Made by a program: the position numbers and the translations under genes
From: Rugosimonospora africana
Lineage (GTDB): Bacteria; Actinomycetota; Actinomycetes; Mycobacteriales; Micromonosporaceae
NCBI RefSeq assembly: GCF_016862975.1
Contig: NZ_BONZ01000039.1
Location: forward strand, 62,001-126,000
DNA length: 64,000 nt
Direction: 5' to 3'
Part shown: in pieces, positions 34,612 to 64,000 of the stretch
How the letters are laid out: each line of letters begins with the position of its first letter
How positions within the stretch are numbered: the stretch's first letter is position 1
Notes under the pieces: model-generated
What the model saw: only the letters and a program-made list of their open reading frames with translations
Told to the model about the DNA's origin: nothing
Databases searched by the model: none

Positions 34612-34832
34612 CGAGGACGCAAGTGACCGGCTGCCGCCACCGCGTGGCATCTTTCTCTGTGAGCCGAACGAGCCCACGGGCGGTATCACGGTCGACCAGC
34701 CGTAACCCGAGCGCATCGCCACGCCGGCACGCGGTCTCGGTGTGCAGGCGCAGCAGCGGCGCGTCGAGGACGATGTCATTGCCACTCGTTCGGGCAGCCA
34801 GGTTGATCTCGGCCAACTCGTCAGGCGCCAGG
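34612..34832 (-). pseudogene. Tyrosine recombinase, module copy 3, internal fragment
   Basis: Only the middle of the integrase remains (LAEINLAARTSGNDIVLDAP, then HTETACRRGDALGLRLVDRD and LVRLTEKDA). The N-terminal third and the whole HxxR-Y half are deleted. At its 5' side it is joined straight to the AbrB-like fragment, at its 3' side to the module end motif. Confidence 0.8.
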
Positions 34833-43238: not shown

Positions 43239-43242
43239 AACG

Positions 43243-43330
43243 TGTCCGAGGGGGGAGTTGCACCCCCACAGTCGGTTCCTATGCGCACTATGAGTGCGCA
43301 TACCCAGATACTAGCGCATCTACTGACCGC
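43243..43330 (-). tRNA. tRNA-like relic (class II, CAT anticodon arm)
   Basis: On the minus strand CTCGGAC resembles a tRNA-Leu acceptor end. It is preceded by a T-arm GGGGG-TGCAACT-CCCCC and a perfect 10-bp hairpin (43280-43302) whose inner loop CTCATAG would give anticodon CAT. D-arm-like bases (CTAGCGCATCT on the plus strand) follow. No matching 5' acceptor is found. It looks like a decayed tRNA or an attachment-site copy of a tRNA 3' end. The remainder of 43331-43522 shows no gene. Confidence 0.35.
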
Positions 43331-45460: not shown

Positions 45461-47526
45461 AATCCCACCTGTTTGCGGATGTGACGGTTGAGAGCGGTGA
45501 TCACCTTCGGCGCGCGCGCCCGCAGATCGTCGTCGGTGAGGCGGCTCAGCGCCCGCAGATGGCTGCTCGGCTTCGAACGGCTCAGGAACAGGTAGCGATA
45601 CCAACGTAGGCGGTGGGCACGATGTGGCGCCTTCCAGAACTCCTCATCGCTACTTTCTTCACCGATAACGGCGCCCAAGGCATCCGTCTGGCGTGGCCCG
45701 GCCTCGCCCCTCTCGCGCTTCGTGTACGCCGTGTGAAAGCGTTGGAGCATGATGTAGTCGAGGTCGAGCGGCTTGGCAAAGAAGATCCCGAACCTGCGCA
45801 GATGCTTGATGATCGGCCAGAGGTCGGAATACTTCAGGCCATCATGGATGTCGTCGACGTTGTTGTAGTTGGCCAAGCCCTCCAGCGGACTGATGCCGTT
45901 GTCGACGAGCCGCTTGCACGCGTCGCGCAGCCTGGCGGGACCTGCGCCGGCGCGGCCGTAGTCGAGGTCTAGTAGCGTCGCGTGCGGGATACTCAGGTCA
46001 TTGAGCAGCTTCCACATGTGGTTCGTGTGCCGGCCGCCGAGCGGGACCACCGCGACGAACGACGGGTCGAGGTCGACGCCCTGAGCCTGCGCGATCCGCG
46101 GGATGACGAGCTGTTCGGTGTCGCCTTCGCCGAGCACGACGAATTTCGCGAAGTACAGCTCGGGGTGCGCGCGCACGGCCTCACGGACATACTTGCCCGC
46201 GGAAGTCGCGTCCGCGGGCAGCGTGATTGAGCGCACCGAAGCTGTCGCCGTCATCGGATCGCTGCGGAAGTAACGCAGGTCGTCAGGCTCGATACGCGTC
46301 AACACGCTGGCGGAGTGGCTGGACAAGACGGCCTGCGTCGCGTCGCCGGCGGCGAGCTGCCGCAGCTGGCTGACGATCCGGGAGAGGAAGAACGGCGACA
46401 AGTTGTTCTCGGGTTCCTCGACCGCGATCAGGGTCAGGTTCGGCAGCTGAGCGGCGTCCAACGTGAAGTCCGTCGGGTGCAGCCGATCATAAACGGCGGC
46501 CTCAACGTCCAGGGCCGCGGCAGTTAGTGCGAGGTGCAACAGCGACCGTTGTCCGTCGCTGAGCAGGCGAGCTGGACGCGCCCGTCCGGCGTGGTCCGGC
46601 TCGAAGACCAACTCGGTATTGCGCACCAGCTGGTCGAAATCGCCGTCGAGCAGCCGCAGCCTCGGCGACGCGTGTGTGCCAGCGTCGTGCAGTTCCTGCC
46701 ACCGCGCGCTCAAGGCGCCCTCGACAGCCTTGACGACCGGCTCATCGTCGAATTGGTCTGCCACCTGGTCGGCGTGCTCGTTAACCATTACGCGCAGCTC
46801 ATCCGACCACTGCGCGGCCCGCCATAGCCGGCCCCGCAGGAACGCGGTCACCTGACGTGCACCGTCCCGCGACGCCGGAATATAGATCATCTGAATGCGG
46901 CTGCGCTCGGCTGCTGGCAGCGGTGCGTAGTCCTCGTCGCCGTACTCTTCGGCCATGGTGCTGACCACGATGCGGGTCTCCGTGATTGTGCCGTCCACGG
47001 TGCCGTCGTCTTCCCACGTCGCTTTCAACACGATCCGGACCTTGAGTTCGCCATCGCCGTCGGCGGCCATGCGTGAGAAGAACTCCGGCACCGCCCGAGG
47101 GCTGACTGCCAATGGCTCCGGAATTTGATCGTCTTGGTCTTCGTCGAGATCGTCGTCGCCGATTTCCTCGTCGTCGCCGAGGTCGTCGTCTTCTTCGTCT
47201 TCTCCGCCGCTCTCGTCCGGCTCGTCGGCGTCTTCACCGCCGGCGTCCTGGGTGTCGTCGAGTTCAGAGAAGGCGAGCAACGCCTCGATCGTCAACTCAC
47301 GGGTGGCCGGAACATGGACTTCATCGACCGGGATATGGAAGTCTTCCGCGCGTACTGCGCGGTCCTGCCCGGTAATCCCGAAGAGTCGCAGCAGCGCCTC
47401 GCAGGCGGCGGTCTTGCCTGTGCCGTTGGTACCGATGAAGGCTGTCAGTTCCGAGCCGAGGTCGATCCTGGTGCGTCCCGACCCGAAGCACTTGAAGTTT
47501 TCCAGCACGAGCGTCTCGATGAACAT
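45457..47526 (-). CDS. OLD-family ATP-dependent endonuclease (GajA-like)
   Basis: A 689-residue protein: an N-terminal ABC-type ATPase (FIETLVLENFKCFGSGRT, Walker A GTNGTGKTA at 32-40, signature LLSDGQRSLLHLALTAA, Walker B LTLIAVEEPENNLSP, then SSHSASVLTRI). A TOPRIM nuclease domain follows (VVLGEGDTEQLVIPRIAQ near residue 464, then HATLLDLDYGRAG). Residues ~89-137 form a strongly acidic insertion (runs such as GGEDEEDDDLGDDEE) inside the ATPase domain, which is unusual. Class 2 OLD nucleases are coupled to a UvrD-like helicase, as here through a 4-bp overlap. In Gabija the nuclease senses nucleotide depletion and nicks DNA. Confidence 0.85.
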   Translation of the reverse strand: MFIETLVLENFKCFGSGRTRIDLGSELTAFIGTNGTGKTAACEALLRLFGITGQDRAVRAEDFHIPVDEVHVPATRELTIEALLAFSELDDTQDAGGEDADEPDESGGEDEEDDDLGDDEEIGDDDLDEDQDDQIPEPLAVSPRAVPEFFSRMAADGDGELKVRIVLKATWEDDGTVDGTITETRIVVSTMAEEYGDEDYAPLPAAERSRIQMIYIPASRDGARQVTAFLRGRLWRAAQWSDELRVMVNEHADQVADQFDDEPVVKAVEGALSARWQELHDAGTHASPRLRLLDGDFDQLVRNTELVFEPDHAGRARPARLLSDGQRSLLHLALTAAALDVEAAVYDRLHPTDFTLDAAQLPNLTLIAVEEPENNLSPFFLSRIVSQLRQLAAGDATQAVLSSHSASVLTRIEPDDLRYFRSDPMTATASVRSITLPADATSAGKYVREAVRAHPELYFAKFVVLGEGDTEQLVIPRIAQAQGVDLDPSFVAVVPLGGRHTNHMWKLLNDLSIPHATLLDLDYGRAGAGPARLRDACKRLVDNGISPLEGLANYNNVDDIHDGLKYSDLWPIIKHLRRFGIFFAKPLDLDYIMLQRFHTAYTKRERGEAGPRQTDALGAVIGEESSDEEFWKAPHRAHRLRWYRYLFLSRSKPSSHLRALSRLTDDDLRARAPKVITALNRHIRKQVGL

Positions 47527-47947: not shown

Positions 47948-50020
47948 ATGTCGTTGGATCATGTCGCGTCCAAACCAGCACAGGTGCGGCTCGCAGTGGC
48001 AGGCCCGGACGATAGCTCTGCCATCGAGGAGGCCATCCAGCTCGGCAACTCCGCCCGCGCATCGTTGGGGCTTATGCGCGTCGCCGTCTATCACGAGGCC
48101 GCGATCAACGGCACCCTTCTACTCGCCTACTCGGCTGACCGGGTCGTAGGGTACGCGCTGTACGCGCTGGCGCGCCGCCGAGTCCGACTGAACCATCTGT
48201 GCGTGGACAAGGCGTTCCAGAAGGAAGGGATCGCTCGCCTCCTTGTCGATCATCTGAGTGAGCGTCACGCCGACCATCTGGGAATTTCGGCGCGGTGCCG
48301 CCATGACTACAACCTCGGCGCGTTCTGGATCAAGCTGGGCTTCACTCAGATCGGTGAACGCCGAGGACGCAGCAGGGACGGCCACATCCTCATCGACTGG
48401 TGGCGAGACCATCACCATCCCCACCTATTCACCGCCGACGCCGAGACCGTACTTGTACGTGCCGCCGTGGACACCATGGTGCTCCGAGATCTGGCGGAGC
48501 GCGGACGGACGGACGGCGAGGAATCACGGGCGCTCTTGGAGGACCACCTGGTCGGTCTTCTCGAACTGGTCCGAACTGCGGCGCTCGATGCCGAGATCGA
48601 CCGCATGCAGGGAGCGCTCCGTGCCCAGTGCACGCGACGGGCCCAGCCTTTCACTCCAGCGCGCGGTGAAGCCGCCCACGTCGCTGCCGCGACGAGCGAA
48701 CTGCTCACCATCGCGCGCAAGAGGTACCCGGCGTATCCTGCCGACGATCAGGATGTACTTGACCTTCAGCACGTGGCAGAGGCCATTGCCGCCAAGCTCA
48801 ACGTGTTCATCACCCGCGATCGCCGCCTCACCGAGGCCCTCAGCTCAGGCGCCGAATCGCACGGGTTGAGAATCATGCGTCCCGCCGATGTCATCGTCTA
48901 CATCGATGAACTTGTCGATGCCGAGTCCTACCGACCGGCCGAGTTACTCAACACCGCGTACGAGCTGCGCCAGGTGGGAAGCGGGCAGGACGGTCAGCTA
49001 CTCACGTTGACGAGCCGAGCAGCAGATGAGAAACCTCGACACCTTGCCGAAGCCCTGAGACAGCTAGCACTTGCGGGCCATGCCCGGATCGCCCTATACG
49101 GGCCGTCCGGCGAGGTCGTCGCGGCCTACTGCGCGGTTCCGTCGGACGGCGTCCTTTGGGTGCCGCTGCTCCGCGTCGCCAACGCTCCGGTCGCCGACAC
49201 GATGGCACGACAGCTACTGTTCCATCTACGCAGGTTGGCACGCGACAGCGCAGCCTCCATCATCCGCATCGACGACTCCTACAGATCACCGCAGGTGCGG
49301 CTCGCCGCACTCAACGACGGCTTCCAGGAAACCGAGACCGAGCTGTACGGATATGCCGTCCCCGCCATCGGCTCAGCTGCAGAAATTGAACACCACGTAG
49401 TGCGCGTCGCGCGCCAGGCGAAGGTACCCGAACCGCCAGCGCTAAGATCAGGTATGCCCGCTGTCGTCGCTGCTGAGCTGGAACGAATCTGGTGGCCTGC
49501 GAGGATCACGGACAGCCAACTACCCACCTATCTCATACCGATACAGCAGGCATTCTCAGCCGATCTACTCGGCGTCCCGACCGGACTCCTGCCACGAAGC
49601 GACGCGCTTGGCCTCACCCGCGAGCATGTCTACTACAAGCGTCCAGGCGGCAATCAGGTCACGGCACCCGCACGCCTACTCTGGTACATGAGTCAGGGAG
49701 GCACGACCGTCCCGGGCCCCGCCGCGGTCATCGCATGCTCCCAGCTTGACGCCGTGGTCACCGCGACTCCCGACGAACTCCACAGCCGATTCCAACACCT
49801 CGGCGTGTGGGATAAAAACACCATCCGTAAGGCCGCCCGCGGCGATCGCGTCCAAGCACTGCGCTTCAGCAACACGGAAGTCTTCCCGACCTCAGTTCCT
49901 CGCCACCGCATGCGTGCATTGGCGCAACGCTACGGCTTGCCTGGCCATGCTCCCCAAGGCCCCCTCCGGATCCCTACGGAGCTGTTCACCGCCATCTACG
50001 AGGAAGGCCGCGTCAAGTGA
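47948..50020 (+). CDS. GNAT acetyltransferase-PIN fusion protein
   Basis: A 690-residue multidomain protein. Residues ~12-150 form a GNAT domain (RVAVYHEAAINGTLLLAYSA, RLNHLCVDKAFQKEGIARLL, LGISARCRHDYNLGAFWIKL). Residues ~160-310 are PIN-like: AVDTMVLRDL, a mid-domain acidic helix, DLQHVAEAIAAKLNVFITRD with the typical final acid. The next part (LAEALRQLALAGHARIALYG, then VVAAYCAVPSDGVLWVPLLR) resembles a second, degenerate GNAT-like fold. The C-terminus (ARLLWYMSQGGTTVPGPAAV, RFSNTEVFPTSVPRHRMR) looks PUA/EVE-like. A toxin acting on RNA or acetylating tRNA would fit. Stop and next start overlap by 4 bp. Confidence 0.75.
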   Translation: MSLDHVASKPAQVRLAVAGPDDSSAIEEAIQLGNSARASLGLMRVAVYHEAAINGTLLLAYSADRVVGYALYALARRRVRLNHLCVDKAFQKEGIARLLVDHLSERHADHLGISARCRHDYNLGAFWIKLGFTQIGERRGRSRDGHILIDWWRDHHHPHLFTADAETVLVRAAVDTMVLRDLAERGRTDGEESRALLEDHLVGLLELVRTAALDAEIDRMQGALRAQCTRRAQPFTPARGEAAHVAAATSELLTIARKRYPAYPADDQDVLDLQHVAEAIAAKLNVFITRDRRLTEALSSGAESHGLRIMRPADVIVYIDELVDAESYRPAELLNTAYELRQVGSGQDGQLLTLTSRAADEKPRHLAEALRQLALAGHARIALYGPSGEVVAAYCAVPSDGVLWVPLLRVANAPVADTMARQLLFHLRRLARDSAASIIRIDDSYRSPQVRLAALNDGFQETETELYGYAVPAIGSAAEIEHHVVRVARQAKVPEPPALRSGMPAVVAAELERIWWPARITDSQLPTYLIPIQQAFSADLLGVPTGLLPRSDALGLTREHVYYKRPGGNQVTAPARLLWYMSQGGTTVPGPAAVIACSQLDAVVTATPDELHSRFQHLGVWDKNTIRKAARGDRVQALRFSNTEVFPTSVPRHRMRALAQRYGLPGHAPQGPLRIPTELFTAIYEEGRVK

Positions 50021-50448
50021 CAGTCCAACGGACGCTCTTGCTCTCACTTCGGCCTCGGTTCGCCGACGCCATCCTCAATGGCACCAAGACAATCGAGATC
50101 CGCCGCCGTCCCGTGAACACCGCCTCGGGAACACCCATCATCTTGTACGCCAGCTCTCCGATGATGGCCGTCGTCGGGACCGCGCAGCTCGCCGGCGTCG
50201 ACGTTTACACGCCCGAGACCGCGTGGCGAAAATATCGCCGGACGTTCGGACTCACCCGAGCAGAGTATGACGCATACCTCGACGGCAGCGACGTCGCTTA
50301 CCTGCTAGGTCTCCACCGCGTGAACTCGCTCAACGAGCCACTGCCTCTACGACACCTGCGCGAGGAAGGTCCATTCAGACCACCGCAGAGTTTCCGCTAC
50401 ATCGCGGCATCCGACCCGTCCCGCCTCAAAAACCTTGTGCCTGCCTGA
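50017..50448 (+). CDS. ASCH/PUA-like domain protein
   Basis: A 143-residue protein: TLLLSLRPRFADAILNGTKT, then IEIRRRPVNTASGTPIILYA, and MAVVGTAQLAGVDVYTPETA. This is the ASCH signature (LxLxPxxxxxILxGxKxxExR). The fold binds RNA or modified nucleotides. It starts at GTG 50017 in the stop of the GNAT-PIN gene and lies 17 bp before the PIN gene, so all three are one unit. In such a unit it may bind the nucleic acid target or neutralise the PIN nucleases. Confidence 0.85.
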   Translation: MTVQRTLLLSLRPRFADAILNGTKTIEIRRRPVNTASGTPIILYASSPMMAVVGTAQLAGVDVYTPETAWRKYRRTFGLTRAEYDAYLDGSDVAYLLGLHRVNSLNEPLPLRHLREEGPFRPPQSFRYIAASDPSRLKNLVPA

Positions 50449-50465
50449 AACGAGAGTCCGCAGCC

Positions 50466-51581
50466 GTGATCCTGGTTTACCCCGACGCGAATGCCCTTCA
50501 CGGGGACCCCCTGCTACTCAAACCGCTCGGTCAACAGTTGGTTGACCTCGTTGAAGCCGGTGCCTGCGCGCTCCACTTCTCCCCGGTTGTAGTGGCTGAA
50601 CTTGACCGCACTACGGGCGATGACCTCGCTGGCGAGCACGCCGCTCTCGTAACGCGTATCAGGAACATGGGTCAGCGCTACCACGGATCTGTGGAAGACC
50701 TCCTGACCAACTTAGAGTCGATGAAGTCGGATGCGCGGGATCGAATCGTCGCACGTCGTCAGCAACTCGCCGGCACGCGCGGCGTTCTCGTCGAAGAGTG
50801 GCCGACCAACTCAGTGCAGGAGATCGTTGAGCGAGAACTGGCACGCCGACGGCCGTTCATCGACAAGGAGAACGTCGGCACGATCGGCCACCGAGATACC
50901 GTCATCTGGCTTGGTTTGCTGGCGTTGGCCGTCACTCGCCCCGATGACACCGTCGTATTCGTCACCAAAGACAAGGGATTCCTCGGTAGTAAGGGTGACC
51001 TGCATTCCGATCTTGAAGCAGATCTGGCTCAGCACGGCGTCCAAGCTTCCCGCGTCAAGGCGATGCCCGATCTCTTCTCGGTCATCAACGTACTGCGTAC
51101 CCAGGTCGAGGCCGACCAGCGGCGAGCTACTGCACATGCGGCGATTCGACAGGCGTTGCATGAGTACAACAAGGAGCTGATGGCGCTGCAGTGGGGTTGG
51201 GAGTTCGATCTCCGCGACGGCGGGCTAGCCAGGCCCGACATCGACGCGGATCTGCCGCCCGAGATGGAGACGGTCACCGTCAGCTTCATTGAAAGCGAAT
51301 TCGACGTCGCCGTTGAGCCAAGCGTTGCAGAGAACGACAAGCCGCTCCGCTGCACGTACAAAGTGGACATCAGCTTCGACGGTGTCATGACCAAGAGCGA
51401 ATGGTATGGCAACGACTACTCGCGCCTGGAGCTGTGGGACTCAGACCTCAACGATCAATACGTAAGCGTGGAGGCATACAGGGTCCTGGAACTGATCGCC
51501 GAGGTGACCTACGACCCAGCGGTCGAGGAGGCGCACGTCGATCACATCGTTGGCAGTCATGTCGTCAGCGACTCATACTAG
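50466..51581 (+). CDS. PIN-domain (DUF4935-type) protein
   Basis: A 371-residue protein. The N-terminal PIN domain has the first acid in LVYPDANALHGDPL, VVVAELDRTTGD, the conserved D in GHRDTVIWLGLLALAVTRPD, and VFVTKDKGFLGSKGDL. The C-terminal ~130 residues are a beta-rich region (METVTVSFIESEFDVAV, then YKVDISFDGVMTKSEWYG), as in DUF4935 relatives. PIN domains are usually RNases of toxin systems. No small antitoxin is beside it; its partners are the ASCH and GNAT-PIN proteins upstream. A GTG start at 50466 follows GAGAGTCCGCAGCC. Confidence 0.85.
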   Translation: MILVYPDANALHGDPLLLKPLGQQLVDLVEAGACALHFSPVVVAELDRTTGDDLAGEHAALVTRIRNMGQRYHGSVEDLLTNLESMKSDARDRIVARRQQLAGTRGVLVEEWPTNSVQEIVERELARRRPFIDKENVGTIGHRDTVIWLGLLALAVTRPDDTVVFVTKDKGFLGSKGDLHSDLEADLAQHGVQASRVKAMPDLFSVINVLRTQVEADQRRATAHAAIRQALHEYNKELMALQWGWEFDLRDGGLARPDIDADLPPEMETVTVSFIESEFDVAVEPSVAENDKPLRCTYKVDISFDGVMTKSEWYGNDYSRLELWDSDLNDQYVSVEAYRVLELIAEVTYDPAVEEAHVDHIVGSHVVSDSY

Positions 51582-51755: not shown

Positions 51756-52553
51756 TTATTCGTCGGTTGTGGTTGCGGCTGGCACGCGACCGAGGTCGCG
51801 GTCCTTGAGCCGGTAGCTGTCGCCTTTGAGGGCGATGACCTCGGCGTGGTGGACGAGACGGTCGATCATGGCGGCTGCGACGACGTCGTCGCCGAAGACC
51901 TCGCCCCAGCGGCCGAAGACCTTGTTGCTCGTCACGATCAGGCTGGCTCGTTCGTAGCGGCTGGAGACCAGTTGGAAGAACAGGTTCGCCGCCTCGGGCT
52001 CGAACGGGATGTAGCCCACCTCGTCGACGACCAGCAGCGGATAGCGGCCCAGTCGGGCGAGTTCGGCTTGTAGCCGGCCGGCGTGGTGAGCCTCGGCGAG
52101 GCGGGCCACCCACTCGGCCGCAGTCGCGAACAAGACCCGGTGGGCGGCCTGACAGGCCCGCATCGCCAACCCGATGGCCAGGTGAGTCTTGCCAGTGCCG
52201 GGTGGGCCGAGGAACACGACATTCTGTTTCTCAGCAACAAAATCGAGGGTGCCCAGGTGAGCAATGACATCACGTTTGAGTCCGCGGGCGTGCTCGAAGT
52301 CGAACTCCTCCAACGACTTCCGTGCCGGGAACCGGGCCGCGCGGATCCGCCCCTCGCCGCCGTGCGATTCCCGGGCCGAGACCTCCCGTTGCAGACAGGC
52401 AACCAGGAACTCCTCGTGCGACCATGACTCGGCCCGAGCCCGCTCCGCGAGCCGCGACACCGACTCACGCAGCGTCGGCGCCTTCAACGCCCGGGTCAGA
52501 AATACGATCTCAGCGTTCAGGTCGCGATGAGTGGCCTTGGCGGTGACCATCAC
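51756..52553 (-). CDS. istB: IstB-like ATPase of the IS21 element
   Basis: A 265-residue AAA+ helper: RDLNAEIVFLTRALKAPTLR, LQREVSARESHGGEGRIRAA, Walker A NVVFLGPPGTGKTHLAIGLA, Walker B YPLLVVDEVGYIPFEPEAAN, sensor region SLIVTSNKVFGRW and the closing MIDRLVHHAEVIALKGDSYR. It selects target DNA for the IstA transposase. The GTG at 52553 overlaps the istA stop by 4 bp (GTGA); an ATG at 52550 is the alternative. Confidence 0.93.
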   Translation of the reverse strand: MMVTAKATHRDLNAEIVFLTRALKAPTLRESVSRLAERARAESWSHEEFLVACLQREVSARESHGGEGRIRAARFPARKSLEEFDFEHARGLKRDVIAHLGTLDFVAEKQNVVFLGPPGTGKTHLAIGLAMRACQAAHRVLFATAAEWVARLAEAHHAGRLQAELARLGRYPLLVVDEVGYIPFEPEAANLFFQLVSSRYERASLIVTSNKVFGRWGEVFGDDVVAAAMIDRLVHHAEVIALKGDSYRLKDRDLGRVPAATTTDE

Positions 52554-53788
52554 GCCACCCCCTGCTCGTCCAGGCCCAGCGCGGTGTCGTAGTCGGCCAG
52601 GCACCGGGTCTCGACCTCATGCTGCGTCGTGGGTCGTGCAATGCCCAGCCGTTCGCGACGCAACGCCTTCGCCGCGGCGACGTGCTGCGGATCGGACACG
52701 CTCTGGTGCCTGGCCCATAGACGGGCATGGTCGGCGACCTGCCGCCCGTCGCAGAAGACCCGCACCTGGACCAGGTCCGCGATGACCTCGACCCGGCGGC
52801 CGATGACCGACGGGTGCACCGAGTAGTCGTTGCTGTCCAACCGGATGTAATGATCGCGGGCCAGCCTCGTGCTGGTTCGCCATCCCGTTACCGGCGGCAC
52901 TGGCGGTAGCGCCAGCATCGCGGCCCGGTCCGCGGCGATCCGGTCGCTGGGCGCGCATCCCAACGCCCGACGGACCCGCCGATTGGTCAGGTCCAGCCAT
53001 GACTGGACCTGCGCATTGAAGTCCGCCGGCGAGGCGAACATGCGGCCGGGCAGGAAGGACCGTTCCAGGTAGTCGTGGGCCCGCTCGATCAGGCCCTTCG
53101 CTTCCGGATCGCCGGGGCGACAGACCAGCACCTTGACGCCCAGCGTTCCCCGGAACGCCTGGCAGTCTCGGGTCAGCTCACTGCGGCCTGCACGCCACCG
53201 TCCGATTGCGCCCTCACCGTCCCAGACCAGGACCCGGGGCACCGCCTGCAACCCGGCCAGATGCTGCCACCAGCCGGCGAACAGGTCCTCCGCGCTACGG
53301 GTAGGGATCAGCAGCGCCGACAGCCAGCGGGAGTACCCCGTCACCATCGTCAGCACCGGCAGCTGCGTCGCGGTCCGCGTCTGCCCGCACCCGACCGGCA
53401 CCGCGATGTCCGGAAACCAGAAGTCGCACTGCGCGATCTCACCGGCCGCATAGCTCGTGCGGCTGGCCGGATCCGGCGGCAGATACACCGTCCGCAACTC
53501 CCGCACCCGATCGGCGAATACCGTCCGCCCACGAGTCCAGCCCACCCGCTCAGCGATCACCGTCGCCGGCATCGTCGGGTACGCCTTGAGTAGCTCTCGG
53601 ATCTGCGACTCAAAGGCGTCAACGATCGATCCAGCCGGCTTCCGTTGGTACTTCGGTGGCCTATCCGCCGCCAGCGCGGCACGCACCGTGTTCCTCGAAA
53701 TCTTCAACACCCGCGCGATCATCTTGATCGGCAAGCCCTCTGCCCGATGCAACCTGCGGATCTCAGCCCAGTCCTCCACGGACAACAC
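52550..53788 (-). CDS. istA: IstA-like transposase of the IS21 element
   Basis: A 412-residue DDE transposase from GTG 53788, preceded by GGAGGTGAAGG. An N-terminal helix-turn-helix (EIRRLHRAEGLPIKMIARVL, then ISRNTVRAAL) leads to the catalytic core: AQCDFWFPDIAVPVG (first D), VLVWDGEGAIGRW (second D), and EAKGLIERAHDYLERSFLPG (E). The C-terminus (YSVHPSVIGRRVEVIADLVQ) matches the family. An ATG upstream at 53863 lies inside the terminal repeats and is unlikely. Confidence 0.93.
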   Translation of the reverse strand: MLSVEDWAEIRRLHRAEGLPIKMIARVLKISRNTVRAALAADRPPKYQRKPAGSIVDAFESQIRELLKAYPTMPATVIAERVGWTRGRTVFADRVRELRTVYLPPDPASRTSYAAGEIAQCDFWFPDIAVPVGCGQTRTATQLPVLTMVTGYSRWLSALLIPTRSAEDLFAGWWQHLAGLQAVPRVLVWDGEGAIGRWRAGRSELTRDCQAFRGTLGVKVLVCRPGDPEAKGLIERAHDYLERSFLPGRMFASPADFNAQVQSWLDLTNRRVRRALGCAPSDRIAADRAAMLALPPVPPVTGWRTSTRLARDHYIRLDSNDYSVHPSVIGRRVEVIADLVQVRVFCDGRQVADHARLWARHQSVSDPQHVAAAKALRRERLGIARPTTQHEVETRCLADYDTALGLDEQGVA

Positions 53789-53887
53789 CCCTTCACCTCC
53801 CGGCTCGGCACGAGCCAGGAGAACTGGCAGGGGGTCAAAATTCCGCCGGTGGCAAGGGGTCATTTTTCACGCGACGCCGACAATCGC

Positions 53888-55614: not shown

Positions 55615-56640
55615 TCATGGCCCGGTGACGCGGTCGGCAGCGGCGAGCGGGTGTGGTTGGCCGGTCATCGCGGCCAGTGCCGCAGCGACGGCCTGCAGGT
55701 CGGCCTTGATGTACGTGGTGGTGGCCGGGCCGGTGGAGTCGGTGTGGCCGGCGTAGGCGCGGGCGATGCCGTAGCCGAAATGCCGCTCGACCCAGGTCAG
55801 CGTGGTGTGACGCAGCCAGTGGGTCGAGACGCCTTGCGCGGCCACCCACGGCACCTGCTCACCGATGCGTTTCCAGAGGTGGTCGTAGCGGCGGCTCGTG
55901 ATCGCCTGCCCGGTGCGGTACCGCAACAGCCCGTCGCTGGGCACGATCGCGCCTCGGGTACGGGCGTGTTCGTCAAGGTGGGCGGCGAGGTCGAGGGTGA
56001 TCGGCTGCCACCGCAGCGTGGCACCTTTCTCCGTGAGCCGCAGGAGTCCGCGGATGGTGTCCAGGTCGGCCAGCCTCAGCCCGAGCGCCCCGCCGCGTCG
56101 GCAGGCGGTCTCGGTATGCAGGCGCAGCAGGAGCGCGTCGAGGACGACGTCGTTGCCGCTGGTGCGGGCGGCGAGGTTGATCTCGGCCAGCTCGTCCGAG
56201 GCCAGGGCACGGCGAGTGGTCGGTAGTCGGCGGGGCTTGACCACTCGGTGGGCGGGGCTGCCGGTGGCGTCGATGAGCCCGTCGGCGACGGCCCGGTTGT
56301 AGAGGGCGCGGGCGGCGGCGATGACGTGCTCGCCAGCGTGGCGCCCGCTACGGCTGTTACGCCGCGACCGGGCGGTCGCGGCGACCTGCCGCTGCATCGC
56401 CTCGATGTCGCTGGCCGCGATAGCGTCCAAGGCCCGCTCCCCCCAGGCCGCGGCCATGCGGTTCCAGTAGGTGCCATACGTCCGGCGCGCACCGGCCCCG
56501 GCCGCCGCGATCACCTGCGGCAAGTACTCGGCCAGCGTCGGCAAGCGCAGGCCCGGCTCGGCCTGCAGATCAGCGAGGGTTACGCCGAGGTGGGCCAGCA
56601 GTTGCCGCGCCGTGGCCACGCGAGCGGGATCAGCCGACAT
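55615..56640 (-). CDS. Tyrosine recombinase/integrase, module copy 4 (intact)
   Basis: A 341-residue phage-integrase-type recombinase, the only intact copy of four in the window. The N-terminal SAM-like domain (TLAEYLPQVIAAAGAGARRT, AIAASDIEAMQRQVAATARS) is followed by the catalytic domain with R in HTETACRRGGALGLRLADLD, K in LRLTEKGATLRW, HxxR in STHWLRHTTLTW, H in AYAGHTDSTGP and the nucleophile in TTTYIKADLQAVAAAL. Its ATG overlaps the AbrB-like stop by 11 bp. Copies 1, 2 and 3 are broken in different ways, so this one is probably the source of any activity in trans. Confidence 0.92.
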   Translation of the reverse strand: MSADPARVATARQLLAHLGVTLADLQAEPGLRLPTLAEYLPQVIAAAGAGARRTYGTYWNRMAAAWGERALDAIAASDIEAMQRQVAATARSRRNSRSGRHAGEHVIAAARALYNRAVADGLIDATGSPAHRVVKPRRLPTTRRALASDELAEINLAARTSGNDVVLDALLLRLHTETACRRGGALGLRLADLDTIRGLLRLTEKGATLRWQPITLDLAAHLDEHARTRGAIVPSDGLLRYRTGQAITSRRYDHLWKRIGEQVPWVAAQGVSTHWLRHTTLTWVERHFGYGIARAYAGHTDSTGPATTTYIKADLQAVAAALAAMTGQPHPLAAADRVTGP

Positions 56641-57665: not shown

Positions 57666-58631
57666 CTAGAAGCATCGGCAACGTCCGCACGCACGGCATG
57701 GTCCGACGCCGCACTCGTCACACTCGTAGCTGCCGGAAGCGGCGTTATTGCCGCATTTCGAGCACGTGTACCCAGGTTGGGTCGGCCACAGCTTCGGATC
57801 GAGGGCGTATGTCTCGTCGGGGTCGCCCTTGATGTCGCTGCCTGCGCCTGAGGTATCTAGCAGGATGGCCGTCGTGCGGCGAGGGCCGGCGACAGCATCG
57901 ACCTGTAGGAGATTTTCTGCGTGATAGGACGGCGGACTCGCCGCGGGGTGTCCCGTGAAGGCAAGACGGAGGTCCGGTGTTACCCAGCCGATCCATCTCT
58001 GTCGCGTTCCGAGGTCTCGGAGTGGGTGTCGGGCGGGGACGGCGAGGCCGCGGGGAATCCGTAGTGGTGGCCAACCGCTGCTGGCCGCGAAGGCGACGGT
58101 TGCGGTCCGGCGTCGGATGAGCACGAAAGCGCCGCGTACGGGCAGGCGAGCCGCGAGCGCGATTGCGCATACCTCCTCGCTGGCTTGGCTGGAGGCGTGG
58201 AGCTGGCGAAGGTGGTCCACGGTCGGGGCGGCTCCGGCCAAGACCTGGTTAATGGTTGGTTCGGGTAACAGAATCTCGGCTGCGATGGCATCGCAAAGCC
58301 GTTCCTGATCGCGGTCTGGATCGGGTCGGTCTGACAGCCAGTCGAGCGCGGCGTCGTCCTCGTTCACAAGGATGTGGCCGAGTTCGTGCAGGAGCGTGAA
58401 GTTCTGCCGTCGTGAGCCTCGTGACGGCGCGTAGCAGACGATCTGATCCGTCGTGAAGGAGAGTCCGTCACACCAGCCTCCGGCGCCCCGGCTTTCGCGT
58501 AGCTCCTCGACGGGCACAACCCGGACGTCGAACTGCTGAGCGAGTGCTGCGGCGGGGTCAAGCGCCAGCGCCTGCCGGGAACTGTGGGGTATCGCCGCAA
58601 CCAGCCGGCGCGCGTGGAGCTTGAGGGTCAT
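57666..58631 (-). CDS. ImmA/IrrE-type metallopeptidase with C-terminal zinc ribbon
   Basis: A 321-residue protein. Residues 79-90 hold the zinc-peptidase motif LLHELGHILVNE (HELGH 82-86), with the third ligand in LCDAIAAEILLPEP. The C-terminus is a double zinc ribbon (YTCSKCGNNAASGSYECDE, then CGVGPCRACGRCRCF). ImmA-type proteases cleave XRE repressors to switch on phage-like or stress genes. Its partner XRE gene lies 7 bp upstream on the same strand. Together they may control the defence genes at 60356-64000. Confidence 0.88.
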   Translation of the reverse strand: MTLKLHARRLVAAIPHSSRQALALDPAAALAQQFDVRVVPVEELRESRGAGGWCDGLSFTTDQIVCYAPSRGSRRQNFTLLHELGHILVNEDDAALDWLSDRPDPDRDQERLCDAIAAEILLPEPTINQVLAGAAPTVDHLRQLHASSQASEEVCAIALAARLPVRGAFVLIRRRTATVAFAASSGWPPLRIPRGLAVPARHPLRDLGTRQRWIGWVTPDLRLAFTGHPAASPPSYHAENLLQVDAVAGPRRTTAILLDTSGAGSDIKGDPDETYALDPKLWPTQPGYTCSKCGNNAASGSYECDECGVGPCRACGRCRCF

Positions 58632-58638
58632 TCTTGGC

Positions 58639-59436
58639 TTATGCGCTCGTGACTGGATTCTCAGGTAGCCCGCGACGGGCGCGTTCGCTTACGAGCATCA
58701 CCCGCACGACGGCTTTCCATTGACGCGGAGTGAGGGTGCGCTGCCCGCGGTAGGCGACATTGCTGAGCCTGCGCTGCAGGTCCTGGCGAGCTGCGCTAGG
58801 GCCGAGTTCGAAAGCCTGCGCCCACTGCTGGACGACCTCGTCTAGTTCATCGCTGTAAAGCGCCTGGAGCAACGTCTGTGCGGCGTGATCTGTTTCGTCA
58901 ACCCCGACCACGGTTGCGTCCCGCGCACGCACGATCAGCGAGTCGGTCGAGACGTCGAGAGCTGACGCAAGGTCAGCCAACAATGCGGGCGGGACGTCCT
59001 GCGTGCCGCGTTCCCATGTGAATACCTCGCCGGTGCTCGTCGACCAGCCTCTTGCTCGTAGCGCTGCAGCTACGTCCGACGGGCGCAGCTTCTGGCGTTG
59101 GCGCGCTTGACGCAGGGCTGCCGGGTCGAGTGGCGCGACTGGTACTGCGCCGAGCGCGATGGCCGTGGGATCCGAGTCCAGCTCGGGCAGCGGCGCGCCT
59201 GCAAGGAGCCGATCGACGGTACCCCACGCAGCCATGACCTGCGCCCGTTGGTCGTTGGTGAGGTCGTCGAGCTGCGGTAGGTCGTCCTTGCTCCCGCTCA
59301 GTACGTCGAGGTAGTCGAGCGTAAGTTGCGCTAGTTGATCGCCTTCTTGTGGGTTGCGCTCCTGCGACTGGACGGAGCTGGGTTCATCGGACACGTCCAA
59401 GCTCCTTTCATGCGGTGAGCGATGATCATTACTCAT
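58639..59436 (-). CDS. XRE-family transcriptional regulator
   Basis: A 265-residue regulator. The central helix-turn-helix runs LRQARQRQKLRPSDVAAALR to GEVFTWERGTQDVPPALLAD and LASALDVSTDSL. The acidic N-terminus (NPQEGDQLAQLTLDYLDVLS) and the helical C-terminus are family-specific and unknown to me. The ATG at 59436 is used; the 7-bp spacing to the ImmA-type gene shows one operon. It would repress its own promoter and be removed by the protease, by analogy with ImmR/ImmA. Confidence 0.85.
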   Translation of the reverse strand: MSNDHRSPHERSLDVSDEPSSVQSQERNPQEGDQLAQLTLDYLDVLSGSKDDLPQLDDLTNDQRAQVMAAWGTVDRLLAGAPLPELDSDPTAIALGAVPVAPLDPAALRQARQRQKLRPSDVAAALRARGWSTSTGEVFTWERGTQDVPPALLADLASALDVSTDSLIVRARDATVVGVDETDHAAQTLLQALYSDELDEVVQQWAQAFELGPSAARQDLQRRLSNVAYRGQRTLTPRQWKAVVRVMLVSERARRGLPENPVTSA

Positions 59437-59511
59437 GATGCTCGGTGGCCTCGAACTGTATTCGGTGGTGCTGTTCCCTGCCGGCAGACCCGGTTTGCTG
59501 ACACTCAGTTT

Positions 59512-60246
59512 TCATCGTCGTTGTCCTGTAGCCGATTGGGGGTATCGACCGGCAGGGGCGATGCCGAGTTCGGCGAGCAGGTCGGCGACGGGGTTCTTCA
59601 GTAGCTGGCCAACGCGTTGCCCGCTGAGATTGAATACAGCCCCGATGTCGGCGCGAGTATGGCCGTCGAGCAGCAGCGCGAGCATTTTCCGCTCGCGGTT
59701 CATTAACCGGTCCATGGCGCGTTGGACGGCTTCTCGCACCTCCATACTCCGCTGTCGCTCTATGATCACGTCGACGATGTCCGGACCGGTGTCGACGATG
59801 TCGGCCAGTGCAGGGAGAGGCCCAGCGAGCGCAGGTTGGACGCTGCCCTCCTCGGCCTGTCGATGGCTTCGCCGACGCGCAGAGGCCCTTACGTGGTCAA
59901 GGGCCGCGTTTCGAACGGACTGAATGAGGTAGGCATCCGGTTCGTCGGGGACGTAACCGGCGGCGAAACGTGCGGCGACCTTGACCACGGCCGTCGACAC
60001 GGCATCTTCCGCGTCGTGCTGGTTGCGAAGGATGGCCCACGCAGCCCGCAGCATCGCCTCCCGGTTCCGCACGTATAGTGCCGCGAGGGTTGGTCGCTCG
60101 TCGTCCCTGGACAAGTAATGGCCTCCCGCCGGCTGCCGCCCGACTGGTGCAGAGTCGCTCCGAAGGGAGACGTTAGCGGAGCCCCTTGCGAAAGCCGGCC
60201 CGATCAGCGCGCCCGTTCGTTCAGAAGCCCCAGTACTATTGGCCAT
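59512..60246 (-). CDS. Sigma-70-type (ECF-like) RNA polymerase sigma factor
   Basis: From ATG 60246 a 244-residue sigma factor: region 2 (YVRNREAMLRAAWAILRNQH, DAEDAVSTAVVKVAARFAAG, AYLIQSVRNAALDHVRASAR) and region 4 (REAVQRAMDRLMNRERKMLA, LLLDGHTRADIGAVFNLSGQ, RVGQLLKNPVADLL). The N-terminal ~50 residues before region 2 are unusually long. An alternative start at 60384 overlaps the methyltransferase gene. A 16-bp palindrome lies across the chosen start. It is divergent from the methyltransferase gene, so it may direct transcription of this locus. Confidence 0.85.
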   Translation of the reverse strand: MANSTGASERTGALIGPAFARGSANVSLRSDSAPVGRQPAGGHYLSRDDERPTLAALYVRNREAMLRAAWAILRNQHDAEDAVSTAVVKVAARFAAGYVPDEPDAYLIQSVRNAALDHVRASARRRSHRQAEEGSVQPALAGPLPALADIVDTGPDIVDVIIERQRSMEVREAVQRAMDRLMNRERKMLALLLDGHTRADIGAVFNLSGQRVGQLLKNPVADLLAELGIAPAGRYPQSATGQRR

Positions 60247-60255
60247 CGATGGCCA
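60240..60255. promoter_or_regulatory. Perfect 16-bp palindrome at the sigma factor start
   Basis: TGGCCATCGATGGCCA is its own complement and contains the proposed ATG of the sigma factor. Its position in the ~110-bp divergent region fits an operator, for instance of the XRE protein. It could also be a modification site of the nearby methyltransferase. Confidence 0.4.
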
Positions 60256-60355
60256 GGAGGCGTGTTTCCGCTGGTTGGAGGTCTGCTTTGATAACCTCCG
60301 GGCGGGTGGCGGGTCGGCCACGGGTTGATCTTCGCCATAGGGCAGGATCTTCTCG

Positions 60356-61903
60356 ATGAGTGACGAGGCGTGGCAGAGGTACAAGCAGGCGTTACCGGCG
60401 ACGGTCTGCGATGTCGCCCGGGCAAGCCTGCTGCAGGAATACGCCTCGGTGATGAAGGATCGCCTTGATCTTGGCCGTCACGCAGGCGTCCTGCCCCGCG
60501 CGAAAGAGCCCGTGTATCGGTGGGCTCGCTACAAGGAGGCGTACGCGCCTCTCCTGGTTCGAGAGGTACTCGATCAGCTTCTCCCGAACCAGTCCCGCGT
60601 CCGGGCCGAGACCCCGCCACTTGTATACGACCCCATGGTGGGCTCGGGCACATCGTTGTTGGTAGCGGCGGAACGGGGCCTTTCCGCGCTAGGCGCCGAT
60701 CTCCTGCCATACGCCACCTTTCTCGCGTCAACACTCACCCGGTGGCGGCACGCCGATCCGGACGGGATCAGACAGGTCGCCAACGACGCGCTCTCCGGGT
60801 ACGCATCGCTGCCCGGAGAGAGCCAGCTGGACGTGCCCGCAGCTGATTGGGCATTCGCGCCCGCGGTAGCAACGACGCTGACGCAGTTGATCAACGCGGT
60901 CGATCGCGCTCCGGCGGGAGTAAACCGAGACCTGGTTCGACTGGCTGTCCTCTCGGCCGTCGAGCAGGTCAGCTACGCCGTCAAGGACGGGACGTCTCTT
61001 CGGCGACGGTTGCCCGACGGCCCGGCACGACCGGGCCGGCCAGGTCAACAGCGCGAGGCGATGGACGTCGCCGACGTGATCGCAGGCGTCCAAGCAAGGG
61101 TCGATGCGATCATCACGGACCTTGAGCGGACCGTCTCAGCCACTGACGCAGCGTCGGTTGATCGCGAAAGCGTCGCTGACACAGGTTTCGTCCCTCGGCT
61201 GTCGCCCTCAACGTGCGCGGCCAAGCCAGCCTCCAGAAGCGTCACCGTAGTGCGGGCGGATACCCGCCAGTGGCGACCCGCAGCTGAGTCGTGCGCAGCG
61301 GTGGTCTTCAGCCCGCCGTACCCGAACCGCTATGACTACTCGGCCGTGTACCAGCTGGAGCTGGCGTTGGGCGCGTTCGTCTCTGATGCTGCCGGTCTAC
61401 GTCGCGTGCGGAAGCAGTTGCTGCGCTCACACCTTGAGGCGCCGCCACGAGACGAGTACCGCGTCGAGCATCCGGCATTGCGGGAGTTCTTGGCGGCTGT
61501 CAATGGCAGCCGCACCACGGGTGACCAGGCAGGCCGCGTCCTGCGGATGGTGGCAGGATTCTTCGAGGACATGGCTGATGTGCTCGCGCGGGTGGCAGAA
61601 GCGTTGCAGGCGGGCGGTTCTGTCGGCCTCGTCGTCGGCACCCAGACGTACTATGGTCAACATCTGCCGACCGACCTGTTGTTGGCCGAGCTAGCCACGA
61701 CAGTTGGCCTTGAGGTCCGCGAACTATGGATCGCGCGGGCCAAGGGCGTCGCCTCGCAGCAGCGCGGTATGACCGGTCTGACCAGTCTGCCAAGCCGCGA
61801 GACCGTACTGATCTTGCAAAAGCCGCCGTCAGCGCCTCGACGCGGCCGACGATCGGCGGCTGCTGGAGCCTCACCCTCCCGCACGCCGCGCCGCCGTGTG
61901 TAA
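60356..61903 (+). CDS. DNA methyltransferase (N4-cytosine/N6-adenine type)
   Basis: A 515-residue enzyme. The AdoMet motif I is YDPMVGSGTSLLVAAERGLS at 91-110 and the catalytic motif IV is VVFSPPYPNRYDYSAVYQLE near 317-336 (SPPY). A ~200-residue middle region lies between, as in alpha-type order with a target-recognition part. A closing GQTYYG-like block (VGTQTYYGQHLPTDLLLAEL) supports the class. It methylates DNA. Tail-to-tail it overlaps the DUF1998 protein by 33 bp. In a defence locus it would protect host DNA. The ATG at 60356 is used. Confidence 0.85.
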   Translation: MSDEAWQRYKQALPATVCDVARASLLQEYASVMKDRLDLGRHAGVLPRAKEPVYRWARYKEAYAPLLVREVLDQLLPNQSRVRAETPPLVYDPMVGSGTSLLVAAERGLSALGADLLPYATFLASTLTRWRHADPDGIRQVANDALSGYASLPGESQLDVPAADWAFAPAVATTLTQLINAVDRAPAGVNRDLVRLAVLSAVEQVSYAVKDGTSLRRRLPDGPARPGRPGQQREAMDVADVIAGVQARVDAIITDLERTVSATDAASVDRESVADTGFVPRLSPSTCAAKPASRSVTVVRADTRQWRPAAESCAAVVFSPPYPNRYDYSAVYQLELALGAFVSDAAGLRRVRKQLLRSHLEAPPRDEYRVEHPALREFLAAVNGSRTTGDQAGRVLRMVAGFFEDMADVLARVAEALQAGGSVGLVVGTQTYYGQHLPTDLLLAELATTVGLEVRELWIARAKGVASQQRGMTGLTSLPSRETVLILQKPPSAPRRGRRSAAAGASPSRTPRRRV

Positions 61904-63715
61904 GAAGCCCTCCTGAATGGCGAGGCGTCCCCCACCCACCAAGTAGGCCCGGTCCAGGCCGCGATTGAACCGCTCGCAACCGAATGCCACCGCCAGGCAT
62001 TTGTGGCAACCGCCGCGTTCTGCCAGGCAAACCGGGTCATGTACGCAGCTGGCCGCCGCCTCCGCGGCGTCGCTCAGCCACAGACGCAGATGTTGTTCGG
62101 CGAGGGCGCCGAGCGCCCCGAGGTTGAAGGCGTTGAACTTCGCGACGAAGATCAGGGTGCTTGCGGTTCGTTCGAGCAGGTACTCACCGACGGAATTGGC
62201 GGAGAAGCTGGAGTGGTAGGCCAACGCGTGCATCAGCAGGTGCGACCACACGTGTGTGACGCGCCGAATCGCGTCGGCGGCCTCGGTCGGCACTGCCGCG
62301 TAGGTCATGTCAAGCACCCAGGCTCGGGCCTGCTCGGTGGTGGGCCCGTCGGCTGTCGGCCAGGCTTGGGTCCAGCCGTTGGAACGGCAGAAATGCCATA
62401 GGACGACGGGATCGCATTCGACCAGCAATCCCTCGGTGTTGGCGTCGACGGCCACGAGCGGCAGCTGTTGCGTGTCGCGGGTCGGGTCGAGGGGCGACAG
62501 CCGGGCACGCTCGTCGGAGTGCACACGGCTGTAGCCGTAACCCACCAAGGCGATTGGGAAGTCCCGGACAAGGGCGACGCGACTCAGGCCCAGCTGGCGC
62601 GCCGCCGCAAGGCCGGTGTGAATTCTGTCCGCCAGCTCGGTGCTCCCAGCTGTTGTGAGCGTAGCTGCGATGTCGGTGAGGTTGTCGACGGAGTGCCGTG
62701 CGTGAAGAAACGCTCGTTCGAAGATCCGCCGGTCTGAGGTGGCGGCGCCGACCGTGTGCGGTTGTAGTGCGGCTCGTGTTCGTTCGAGGGCTGGTTCGTC
62801 GCCGCGTGTCGCATCGACCATGGCCTGTGCCTGCTGGACTGCCTCGGTGTCATGTCCATAGCGCTCCCGGATCATTTCCAGCAGACGCGCCGCCTCAGCG
62901 TTGGGGCTAGCGGGCCCGGCACCGCGGCCTGCCGCGAGCATGCCGGACAGGTCGCCGACGGTGTCCATGTAGTGCCCGAGGGCGTACACAGCGGCGCGGT
63001 CACTGTTCCGGACGTCACGCAGCTGTGCATCAATGTTGACCAGCGTGAGGCGGTGCCCGTAGTAAGCCTTTGCGTCGCGGGCGGTGACCAGCGTGAGGGT
63101 TCGTGCCCGGCTGGGGTCGCTCTTTGCCCAGGCGCAGTCGACGCAGGTCGCGAACCGCATAGGTAGCCAGCGTCGACAGGTGGGACGACTGCACCGGAAG
63201 CCGGCGGTGACGAACGAACCGGTGTCCTCGAACGTGCGGTCGTCGGTGAGATGATCAGGGCACTGTGGCACCTGCAGTTGCCGCCGCTTACCACAACCGT
63301 GTACCTGGTAGTACGGTAGCTGACGGTAGGCACCGGTGCGGCATCGCCGACAGCGGCGAGACTCGGGGATTCCGGTATCTGCCTGTCGGCCGGTGCGCAG
63401 GACGAGAACGTGTCCGCACTCTCGGTTGCCGCAGAACAGGAGAACCGGCCACACGTCCCACCTGACCCACTCCGGCCGCACCAGGCGGAACGTGTCGGCG
63501 TGTTCCAGGAGGTTGTTGGGAAAGCTGGGTGCGTCGCCGCCGTTGGCGCGCCACTGCGCCAGCCTATGGTCGAGCGCTTCGAGTACCTGTTCAATGGGGA
63601 TATCGGGACGACCGCCGCTGATGTCGCGAACGACGCAATAGATGCCGTCGACCTCGTGCTCGAAGACCTGACCGGGTAGATGTCCGTACTGGACGGTGAC
63701 GCGGCTGCGCTGCAC
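61871..63715 (-). CDS. DUF1998/DrmB-like protein
   Basis: A 614-residue protein. Cysteine clusters (LLFCGNRECGHVLVLRTG with CRRCRTGAYRQLPYYQVHGC, then FRCSRPTCRRWLPMRFATC and VDCAW) fit zinc-binding modules. The C-terminus AASCVHDPVCLAERGGCHKC, then GCERFNRGLDRAYLVGG, is the DUF1998 signature seen in DrmB of DISARM and in related helicase partners. GTG 63715 follows GGAGGAAT. It stands 55 bp after the end of the gene at 63771 on the same strand, as DrmB follows DrmA. The assignment to DISARM is inference. Confidence 0.75.
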   Translation of the reverse strand: MQRSRVTVQYGHLPGQVFEHEVDGIYCVVRDISGGRPDIPIEQVLEALDHRLAQWRANGGDAPSFPNNLLEHADTFRLVRPEWVRWDVWPVLLFCGNRECGHVLVLRTGRQADTGIPESRRCRRCRTGAYRQLPYYQVHGCGKRRQLQVPQCPDHLTDDRTFEDTGSFVTAGFRCSRPTCRRWLPMRFATCVDCAWAKSDPSRARTLTLVTARDAKAYYGHRLTLVNIDAQLRDVRNSDRAAVYALGHYMDTVGDLSGMLAAGRGAGPASPNAEAARLLEMIRERYGHDTEAVQQAQAMVDATRGDEPALERTRAALQPHTVGAATSDRRIFERAFLHARHSVDNLTDIAATLTTAGSTELADRIHTGLAAARQLGLSRVALVRDFPIALVGYGYSRVHSDERARLSPLDPTRDTQQLPLVAVDANTEGLLVECDPVVLWHFCRSNGWTQAWPTADGPTTEQARAWVLDMTYAAVPTEAADAIRRVTHVWSHLLMHALAYHSSFSANSVGEYLLERTASTLIFVAKFNAFNLGALGALAEQHLRLWLSDAAEAAASCVHDPVCLAERGGCHKCLAVAFGCERFNRGLDRAYLVGGGRLAIQEGFLHTAARRAGG

Positions 63716-63770
63716 CGGATTCCTCCAGGAGGCGTGGTAATAGGGCGGGTCGGACGTGCGGTGTTGCTGG

Positions 63771-64000
63771 TCAGGTGTTGCCGGCTTCGTCAGCCATCTC
63801 GGGTAGGTCGTCGTTGCCGTCGTCGACGCCGCCGAGCATCGCGAACATCCGCGCCGCGATGGCTCCGTTGGCGCTGAAGTCGGCCGGGGCGTCGATGTCC
63901 CTGAAGCTCGTGGGTGGACGGGGTCGTAGCCGCCTGGTCAGTTGCGGCTCCGTGCCCGACAGCGAGGGCAGTAACGCGTCCAGTTCGTGATCGACCCTAT
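63771..64000 (-). CDS. C-terminal end of a large protein (DrmA-helicase-like position), partial
   Basis: The last ~76 codons of a minus-strand gene whose 5' part is outside the window: VDHELDALLPSLSGTEPQLT, then LRPRPPTSFRDIDAPADFS, and DDLPEMADEAGNT before the stop at 63771. The PTSFRDID block resembles the tail of the long helicases that precede DrmB in DISARM loci, but this piece alone cannot prove it. Confidence 0.5.
   Translation of the reverse strand, partial: RVDHELDALLPSLSGTEPQLTRRLRPRPPTSFRDIDAPADFSANGAIAARMFAMLGGVDDGNDDLPEMADEAGNT

Follow-up and report, generated by a model that had tools for sequence, protein, structure and literature searches.

In this study, we describe a gene cassette that runs across the edge of a 64,000-nucleotide stretch of the genome of the soil bacterium Rugosimonospora africana (the window: positions 62,001 to 126,000 of contig NZ_BONZ01000039.1, C39:62001-126000, in a genome of 11.1 Mb), the same contig being readable beyond window position 64000. 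Judged by sequence, it is probably an anti-phage cassette of the DISARM type, from the branch that contains DrmE, which lacks the PLD nuclease DrmC and in its place has, as the first gene of the operon, one for a coiled-coil nuclease of the metallo-beta-lactamase (MBL)/beta-CASP type. The cassette comprises eight genes (Table 1). Four are transcribed from the minus strand, in the order beta-CASP nuclease, DrmE-like protein, DrmA and DrmB; a DNA methyltransferase on the plus strand is convergent with drmB, and a sigma factor, an XRE regulator and a CapP-like protease of the ImmA type (57666-60384, minus strand) are divergent from the methyltransferase. All eight recur, in identical order and orientation, in Actinoplanes philippinensis DSM 43019. 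With DrmA, DrmB, DrmE and a DNA methyltransferase present, but neither DrmC nor DrmD nor a methyltransferase of either described type, the locus would thus represent a new DISARM variant.

The initial annotation had proposed a DISARM-like locus, with a DUF1998/DrmB-like gene following a gene in DrmA position, and had made this reading depend on a helicase being encoded past 64000. The gene truncated at the window edge indeed continues to about 67730 and matches DrmA (PADLOC DrmA, E = 4.8e-103; NCBIfam DISARM_DrmAS, 7.5e-94, yet at 315.6 bits, far under the model cut-off of 950), with the helicase motifs PTGGGKS, QDELHL and ATSRAGR, and the alternative that the locus lacks a helicase and is not DISARM is accordingly rejected. 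DrmB, which in DISARM is a separate gene after drmA, is found in that place (PADLOC DrmB, 1.2e-23; NCBIfam DrmB_fam, 1.2e-13, under the cut-off; Pfam MZB, 20.7 bits against a cut-off of 24.2), and a profile of its two copies matches 17/17 DrmB proteins from the comparison loci described below. The DrmE-like protein reaches 24.0 bits with Pfam DrmE_C in R. africana and 28.8 bits in the A. philippinensis orthologue (cut-off 27), and hhalign aligns the two copies to the DrmE of Streptomyces cellulosae at 97.7% over 337 columns, in the N-terminal half; the protein has no match to PADLOC DrmE. Six comparison proteins in DrmE position were scanned with DrmE_C, of which five match at E<=0.01 and three exceed the cut-off. 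Together, the DrmE_C and hhalign matches provide the DrmE expected of class 2 DISARM. The DISARM-related reading of the locus is therefore supported, and the locus is more unusual than could be seen within the window.

The protein at the head of the operon contains Lactamase_B, Beta-Casp and RMMBL domains, all over the Pfam cut-offs, and both copies retain the catalytic motifs (HGHNDH, GH, D, E, H and H), this being the combination of domains and motifs that defines a beta-CASP nuclease. Among curated models, aCPSF1 (4.6e-57) and Cas14 (7.2e-52, at 176.6 bits where the cut-off is 800) match best; both scores lie well under the model cut-offs, and therefore the protein is a relative of these families rather than a member. 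A ligase-associated DNA exonuclease model gives a weaker match (5e-19). The closest solved structures are PH1404, FttA, Cas14, TTHA0252 and CPSF73. In sequence terms, the beta-CASP domain is nearest to FttA/aCPSF1, Cas14, TTHA0252 and CPSF73, which are mainly ribonucleases, and its motif C residue is a histidine (H863), which we take to be the RNA-type residue. Long helices are predicted for residues ~206-390 with moderate confidence, within an otherwise poor AlphaFold model that reaches this level solely in the coiled-coil helices and in parts of the MBL core. The protein has matches in 265 plasmid records, none of which covers 80% of its length, and its N-terminal 440 residues have no match in plasmids. 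Relatives of the beta-CASP domain, with 21.5-35.1% identity, are encoded in nine unannotated gut phage records (MT836048.1, MT835561.1 and seven others). Alignment of the regions preceding the beta-CASP gene in the two copies revealed no clear common promoter.

Besides DrmA, the part of the operon past 64000 encodes neither the PLD nuclease DrmC nor the SNF2-type DrmD; the DrmE-like and beta-CASP genes are found instead. Fourteen PLD queries run over 174,852 bases around the R. africana cassette and 40,000 bases in A. philippinensis detected no PLD (best E 0.046), so that DrmC, typical of DISARM and not essential to it, was not found near either copy. DrmA matches 85 plasmid records, all at less than 60% identity; the comparison set of 22 loci consists of 18 plasmid loci hand-picked among 40 matches listed of these 85, plus four genome loci, and is not a random sample. 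A PLD gene was found in 15/22 of them (E<=1e-5, with the PLDs of other loci as queries) and a homologue of the beta-CASP protein in none (E<=1e-3); at this same threshold, neither an annotated MBL-fold gene at the edge of one stretch (L054, ~10 kb from drmA) nor a ribonuclease Z at the edge of another (L048) matches the beta-CASP protein.

In a tree of 33 DrmA rows, which uses 13 of the 24 genome sequences (11 were omitted because the gene was cut by the stretch, or its longest frame was uncertain or of insufficient length), both copies join S. cellulosae (99/95) and next Rubrobacter tropicus (100/98), and both of these loci read drmE-drmA-drmB-PLD. Of the 13 loci that have a gene in drmE position, 10 carry the PLD immediately after drmB; loci with a PLD placed in this way are not monophyletic in the tree. 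The cassette thus shares homologous DrmA and DrmB and the drmE-drmA-drmB order with the DrmE-containing branch of DISARM (S. cellulosae, CP109198.1; R. tropicus, NZ_CP045120.1; haloarchaeal plasmids), from which it differs in lacking the PLD at the end and in possessing the beta-CASP gene. Since the nearest DrmA relatives end in a PLD, no PLD was found near either copy and none of the 22 comparison loci has a detectable beta-CASP homologue, the locus is best read as a DISARM variant of the DrmE lineage with the beta-CASP protein in the place of DrmC. The simplest history is that drmC was lost and the beta-CASP gene gained in the ancestor of both copies.

The aligned proteins of the two copies are 65% (beta-CASP), 58% (DrmE), 73% (DrmA), 78% (DrmB), 70% (methyltransferase), 60% (sigma factor), 54% (XRE) and 57% (ImmA) identical, and the 19-nucleotide overlap of the beta-CASP and drmE frames is present in both genomes. 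Ratios of dN/dS (NG86) lie between 0.09 and 0.22 in 8/8 genes (beta-CASP 0.16), being rough values because dS, at 1.5-2.0, is near saturation; identity is 0.39-0.48 at third codon positions and 0.69-0.89 at the other two. All eight genes are under purifying selection, and an arrangement that recurs in another genus with its coding constraint is therefore not due to chance. The variant is rare: a sample of 300 genomes from the family contained two carriers, R. africana being one of them. In this regard, DrmE searches returned R. africana and A. philippinensis each time in two overlapping samples of the family (2/200 and 2/300), A. philippinensis itself in the group of its genus (1/67) and R. 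africana itself across the phylum (1/396). A scan of genome contigs with DrmA found one locus, that of A. philippinensis, and no relative turned up in viral contigs scanned with DrmE, beta-CASP and DrmA, each of these scans relying on two short peptide patterns and not amounting to a census. DrmE has no match in plasmids, nor DrmA in phage records.

The methyltransferase also separates the cassette from described DISARM. As initially annotated, it lies tail-to-tail with drmB (their 3' ends share 33 nucleotides), and its unusual type, the convergent layout and the dedicated control genes all recur in A. philippinensis. It matches PADLOC MTase_II (1.4e-45) and PHROG 18146 (4.6e-27), has no match in Pfam at E<=1, and carries DPMVGSGT followed by SPPYPNRYDY; the SPPY motif presumably marks an N4-cytosine or N6-adenine methyltransferase. 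A DNA methyltransferase is thus part of the locus, as in DISARM, and its matches point to neither a PglX-type nor a C5 enzyme. Its motifs and MTase_II match depart from the C5-cytosine methyltransferase DrmMII of class 2. The S. cellulosae locus has a methyltransferase too, a divergent one with Pfam N6_N4_Mtase, the resemblance between the two being faint (E 3.7e-4 over 34 amino acids). Class 1 DISARM (drmD, PglX-type methyltransferase) has homologous DrmA and DrmB; it was rejected as a classification, as neither SNF2-type DrmD nor a PglX-type enzyme is among the cassette proteins scanned and the tree places the DrmA of the cassette on the opposite side.

Other known systems share single elements with the cassette. 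ARMADA, BRIGADE, TALON, Druantia and Dpd have a helicase of the YprA/DrmA type and, in some cases, a methyltransferase (passages of PMC12458937); ARMADA and Druantia were discarded, as the helicase and the DUF1998 part are separate genes here, matching the DrmA and DrmB models. The nucleases given in those passages for systems with YprA helicases are PLD, PD-(D/E)xK, Vsr, EEP, RNase H and an exonuclease, and the words 'casp' and 'lactamase' are absent from the main text of that survey. Type VII CRISPR, in which the beta-CASP enzyme Cas14 replaced the enzymatic domains of Cas10 (passages of PMC10910872), offers a parallel in that a beta-CASP nuclease took over from another nuclease as a defence effector; its adaptor domain is C-terminal, unlike the N-terminal coiled coil found here. 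It was rejected as an identity, with no Cas5 or Cas7 among ten scanned proteins and a Cas14 score under the cut-off. Searches of open-access full text, with supplements and most subscription papers outside their reach, found no DISARM with a beta-CASP partner and no text that joins DISARM, DrmA, DrmE and metallo-beta-lactamase; PMC11090510 mentions both DISARM and metallo-beta-lactamase, with no link between them in its passages.

The three control genes lie where they had been placed at first. The protease matches Pfam Peptidase_M78 at 39.7 bits (cut-off 22) and PADLOC capP at 7.4e-17; by eye, its Cys-rich tail resembles a zinc ribbon, in the A. philippinensis orthologue as well. The XRE regulator matches HTH_31 (1.3e-4) and HTH_3 (8.7e-4), both under the Pfam cut-offs, and has no match to the PADLOC CapH models at E<=1. 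The sigma factor exceeds the cut-off of NCBIfam sigma70-ECF (6e-17), its true start probably lying downstream of the listed TTG. Proteases of the CapP type are activated by single-stranded DNA and cleave CapH, and both CapW/BrxR and CapH with CapP have been reported to lie beside immune operons, DISARM among them, and to control these (passages of PMC10904395 and PMC13373217). By analogy, the XRE/ImmA pair would fit control of the CapH/CapP type, despite the lack of a CapH match: the gene order, an HTH gene followed by a CapP-like M78 protease, is the same, and the sigma factor is an addition. In another DrmA lineage, a sigma-factor-like gene immediately precedes drmA in three loci (annotated in L046:10284-11405; recognised by eye in L029:6302-8119 and L031:6692-8233), so such genes may recur with DISARM.

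A tRNA-Leu(GAG) gene forms one boundary of the island in which each copy resides. The A. philippinensis island, which holds the cassette together with a HamB-like helicase, extends from this tRNA gene to a near copy of the gene's 3' end ~22.5 kb away, with an integrase beside the tRNA gene and a drop in G+C from ~0.72 to 0.63. In R. africana, the tRNA gene is at C39:231190-231276, and a partial copy of its 3' end (26/30 nucleotides; Table 1) is probably an old att site; these two therefore place the cassette in a ~126-kb region with the same kind of ends, and the genes past the tRNA look alike, by eye, in both genomes. The integrase of the window has a relative beside tRNA-Leu in A. philippinensis, and whole or broken copies of its family, 79-91% identical to it, occur at 13387-14405, 26877-27900 and 34604-34831, with two further integrases (53-55%) beyond the window. 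Because several members of one integrase family recur at scattered points, the region is probably an accretion of islands. A Gabija pair lies just inside the probable att site. The A. philippinensis helicase (of the pair L008:7717-8595 and 8595-11915) matches HamB at 1.9e-39, the candidate family PDC-M23B scoring better, and its upstream partner has no match; this pair is possibly a relative of Hachiman. With Gabija in the window and the HamB-like helicase beside the other copy, both cassettes therefore reside in defence islands.

Table 1. Genes of the cassette and elements of its island, in window coordinates; those past 64000 are extrapolated from the contig, and reading frames are given from the first mechanical start, with provisional N termini
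Feature	Position	Strand	Basis or remark
Partial copy (26/30 nucleotides) of tRNA-Leu(GAG) 3' end	43242..43271	-	~126 kb from the tRNA gene, same contig; probable old att site
Gabija GajB	43523-45604	-	PADLOC 5.1e-191
Gabija GajA	45457-47526	-	PADLOC 3e-219
Tyrosine integrase of the island family	55615..56640	-	Pfam Phage_integrase 2.1e-10
ImmA/IrrE (M78) metalloprotease, CapP-like, HELGH motif, Cys-rich C-terminus	57666..58631	-	Pfam Peptidase_M78, PADLOC capP; orthologue in A. philippinensis
XRE/HTH regulator, in place of CapH	58639..59436	-	Pfam HTH_31, HTH_3 (below cut-offs); orthologue 54% identical
ECF-type sigma-70 factor	59512..60384	-	NCBIfam TIGR02937 (sigma70-ECF)
DNA methyltransferase, convergent with drmB	60356..61903	+	PADLOC MTase_II, PHROG 18146, motifs
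DrmB-like, 614 amino acids, MZB/DUF1998 region	61871..63715	-	PADLOC DrmB, NCBIfam DrmB_fam
DrmA helicase, 1319 amino acids	63771..~67730 (63771..64000 within the window; L003:7772-11731)	-	PADLOC DrmA, NCBIfam DISARM_DrmAS
DrmE-like, 916 amino acids	67857-70607, beyond the window (L003:11858-14608)	-	Pfam DrmE_C
Coiled-coil MBL/beta-CASP nuclease, 895 amino acids	70589-73276, beyond the window (L003:14590-17277)	-	Pfam Lactamase_B, Beta-Casp, RMMBL; motifs

Several neighbouring genes were also noted. Three adjoining genes with GNAT, ASCH and PIN domains (47948-51581, plus strand) are possibly a toxin-antitoxin-like or defence unit, and two overlapping genes (51756-53863, minus strand) resemble, by eye, an IS21-type IstA/IstB pair. 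Upstream of the beta-CASP gene lies a small HNH protein (Pfam 1.5e-6; L003:18224-18535, ~window 74223-74534), which was not seen between the integrase and the beta-CASP gene of A. philippinensis, and farther out (~window 76346-80199, L003-L004) are genes that, judged by eye, resemble a lanthipeptide dehydratase and cyclase pair.

All together, these features allow us to propose a tentative model of how the cassette would act. DrmAB has been described as binding DNA without sequence preference, as activated by unmodified DNA with a 5' overhang and as possibly recruiting a nuclease (passages of PMC9142583). DrmA and DrmB, with DrmE, would likewise load on unmodified phage DNA and act as its sensor, the methyltransferase would mark the host DNA, and the beta-CASP protein would be the cutting effector, possibly held by its coiled coil. 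The CapH/CapP-like pair and the sigma factor would unlock expression, probably at single-stranded DNA or DNA damage. In a further version of the model, which we consider possible rather than probable, this DISARM relative would sense phage DNA by DrmAB(E) and attack by way of RNA, having a CPSF73/Cas14-type beta-CASP ribonuclease in the place of DrmC, and its eight genes would travel as one cassette in tRNA-Leu(GAG) islands. As to the substrate, we lean slightly towards RNA, such as transcripts of the DNA being unwound, over DNA, because of the kinship of the enzyme and the motif C histidine. There is also a real, if less than even, chance that the beta-CASP protein is a direct substitute for DrmC that, without any RNA step, degrades the strands of phage DNA which DrmAB exposes; this is the simplest swap, of one DNA nuclease for another, and it agrees with the exonuclease match at 5e-19 and with DNA nucleases being included in the beta-CASP fold (passages of PMC10910872), but the best matches, aCPSF1 and Cas14, the related PDB structures FttA, TTHA0252 and CPSF73, and the residue at motif C point the other way.

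The control genes could have a different role from that proposed in our model, serving as an excision switch of the ImmR/ImmA type for the mobile island and not as part of a defence operon. Such a switch would suit the integrase next to the sigma-XRE-ImmA genes in the window and the ImmR-like module that controls an integrative element (PMC10233336). This seems unlikely, since the A. philippinensis integrase lies at the opposite end, by tRNA-Leu, and the three genes are still beside the methyltransferase there, and since the control of neighbouring immune operons by CapW/BrxR and by CapH with CapP is reported to include DISARM (passages of PMC13373217).

Some observations weigh against our reading of the cassette as a DISARM variant with a built-in beta-CASP nuclease. 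The set is carried by two genomes only. DrmA, DrmB and the R. africana DrmE all fall under the NCBIfam or Pfam cut-offs and are therefore divergent; the two-copy DrmE profile matches just 3/13 comparison genes in drmE position at E<1e-4, and the AlphaFold models are poor for both the DrmE-like (mean pLDDT 30) and the beta-CASP protein (46). Four rows of the tree, S. cellulosae among them, are long branches and 18 are of unusual composition, and thus the exact placement of DrmA is not firm. Likewise, a PLD went undetected in 7/22 comparison loci, so that the absence of DrmC alone is not unusual, and PLDc_2 genes on other contigs of both genomes leave room for a host PLD acting in trans. These last points, together with DrmC being dispensable and often missing (passages of PMC9142583), would suit an ordinary drmE-drmA-drmB-methyltransferase DISARM to which the beta-CASP protein, as an accessory RNA-processing or DNA-repair enzyme, adds little, an improbable explanation given that its gene opens the operon and shares the same 19 nucleotides of overlap with drmE in both genera, with conserved active-site motifs and the dN/dS of 0.16.

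The reading that we prefer, a DISARM variant with its own beta-CASP nuclease, would thus provide a natural version of DISARM in which a different metal-dependent nuclease is built into the operon, with an active site that is easy to mutate. Confirmation would place it alongside type VII CRISPR (passages of PMC10910872) as another instance in which defence has recruited a beta-CASP enzyme as its effector, and would add one more nuclease fold to the list of those given for YprA-type systems (passages of PMC12458937).

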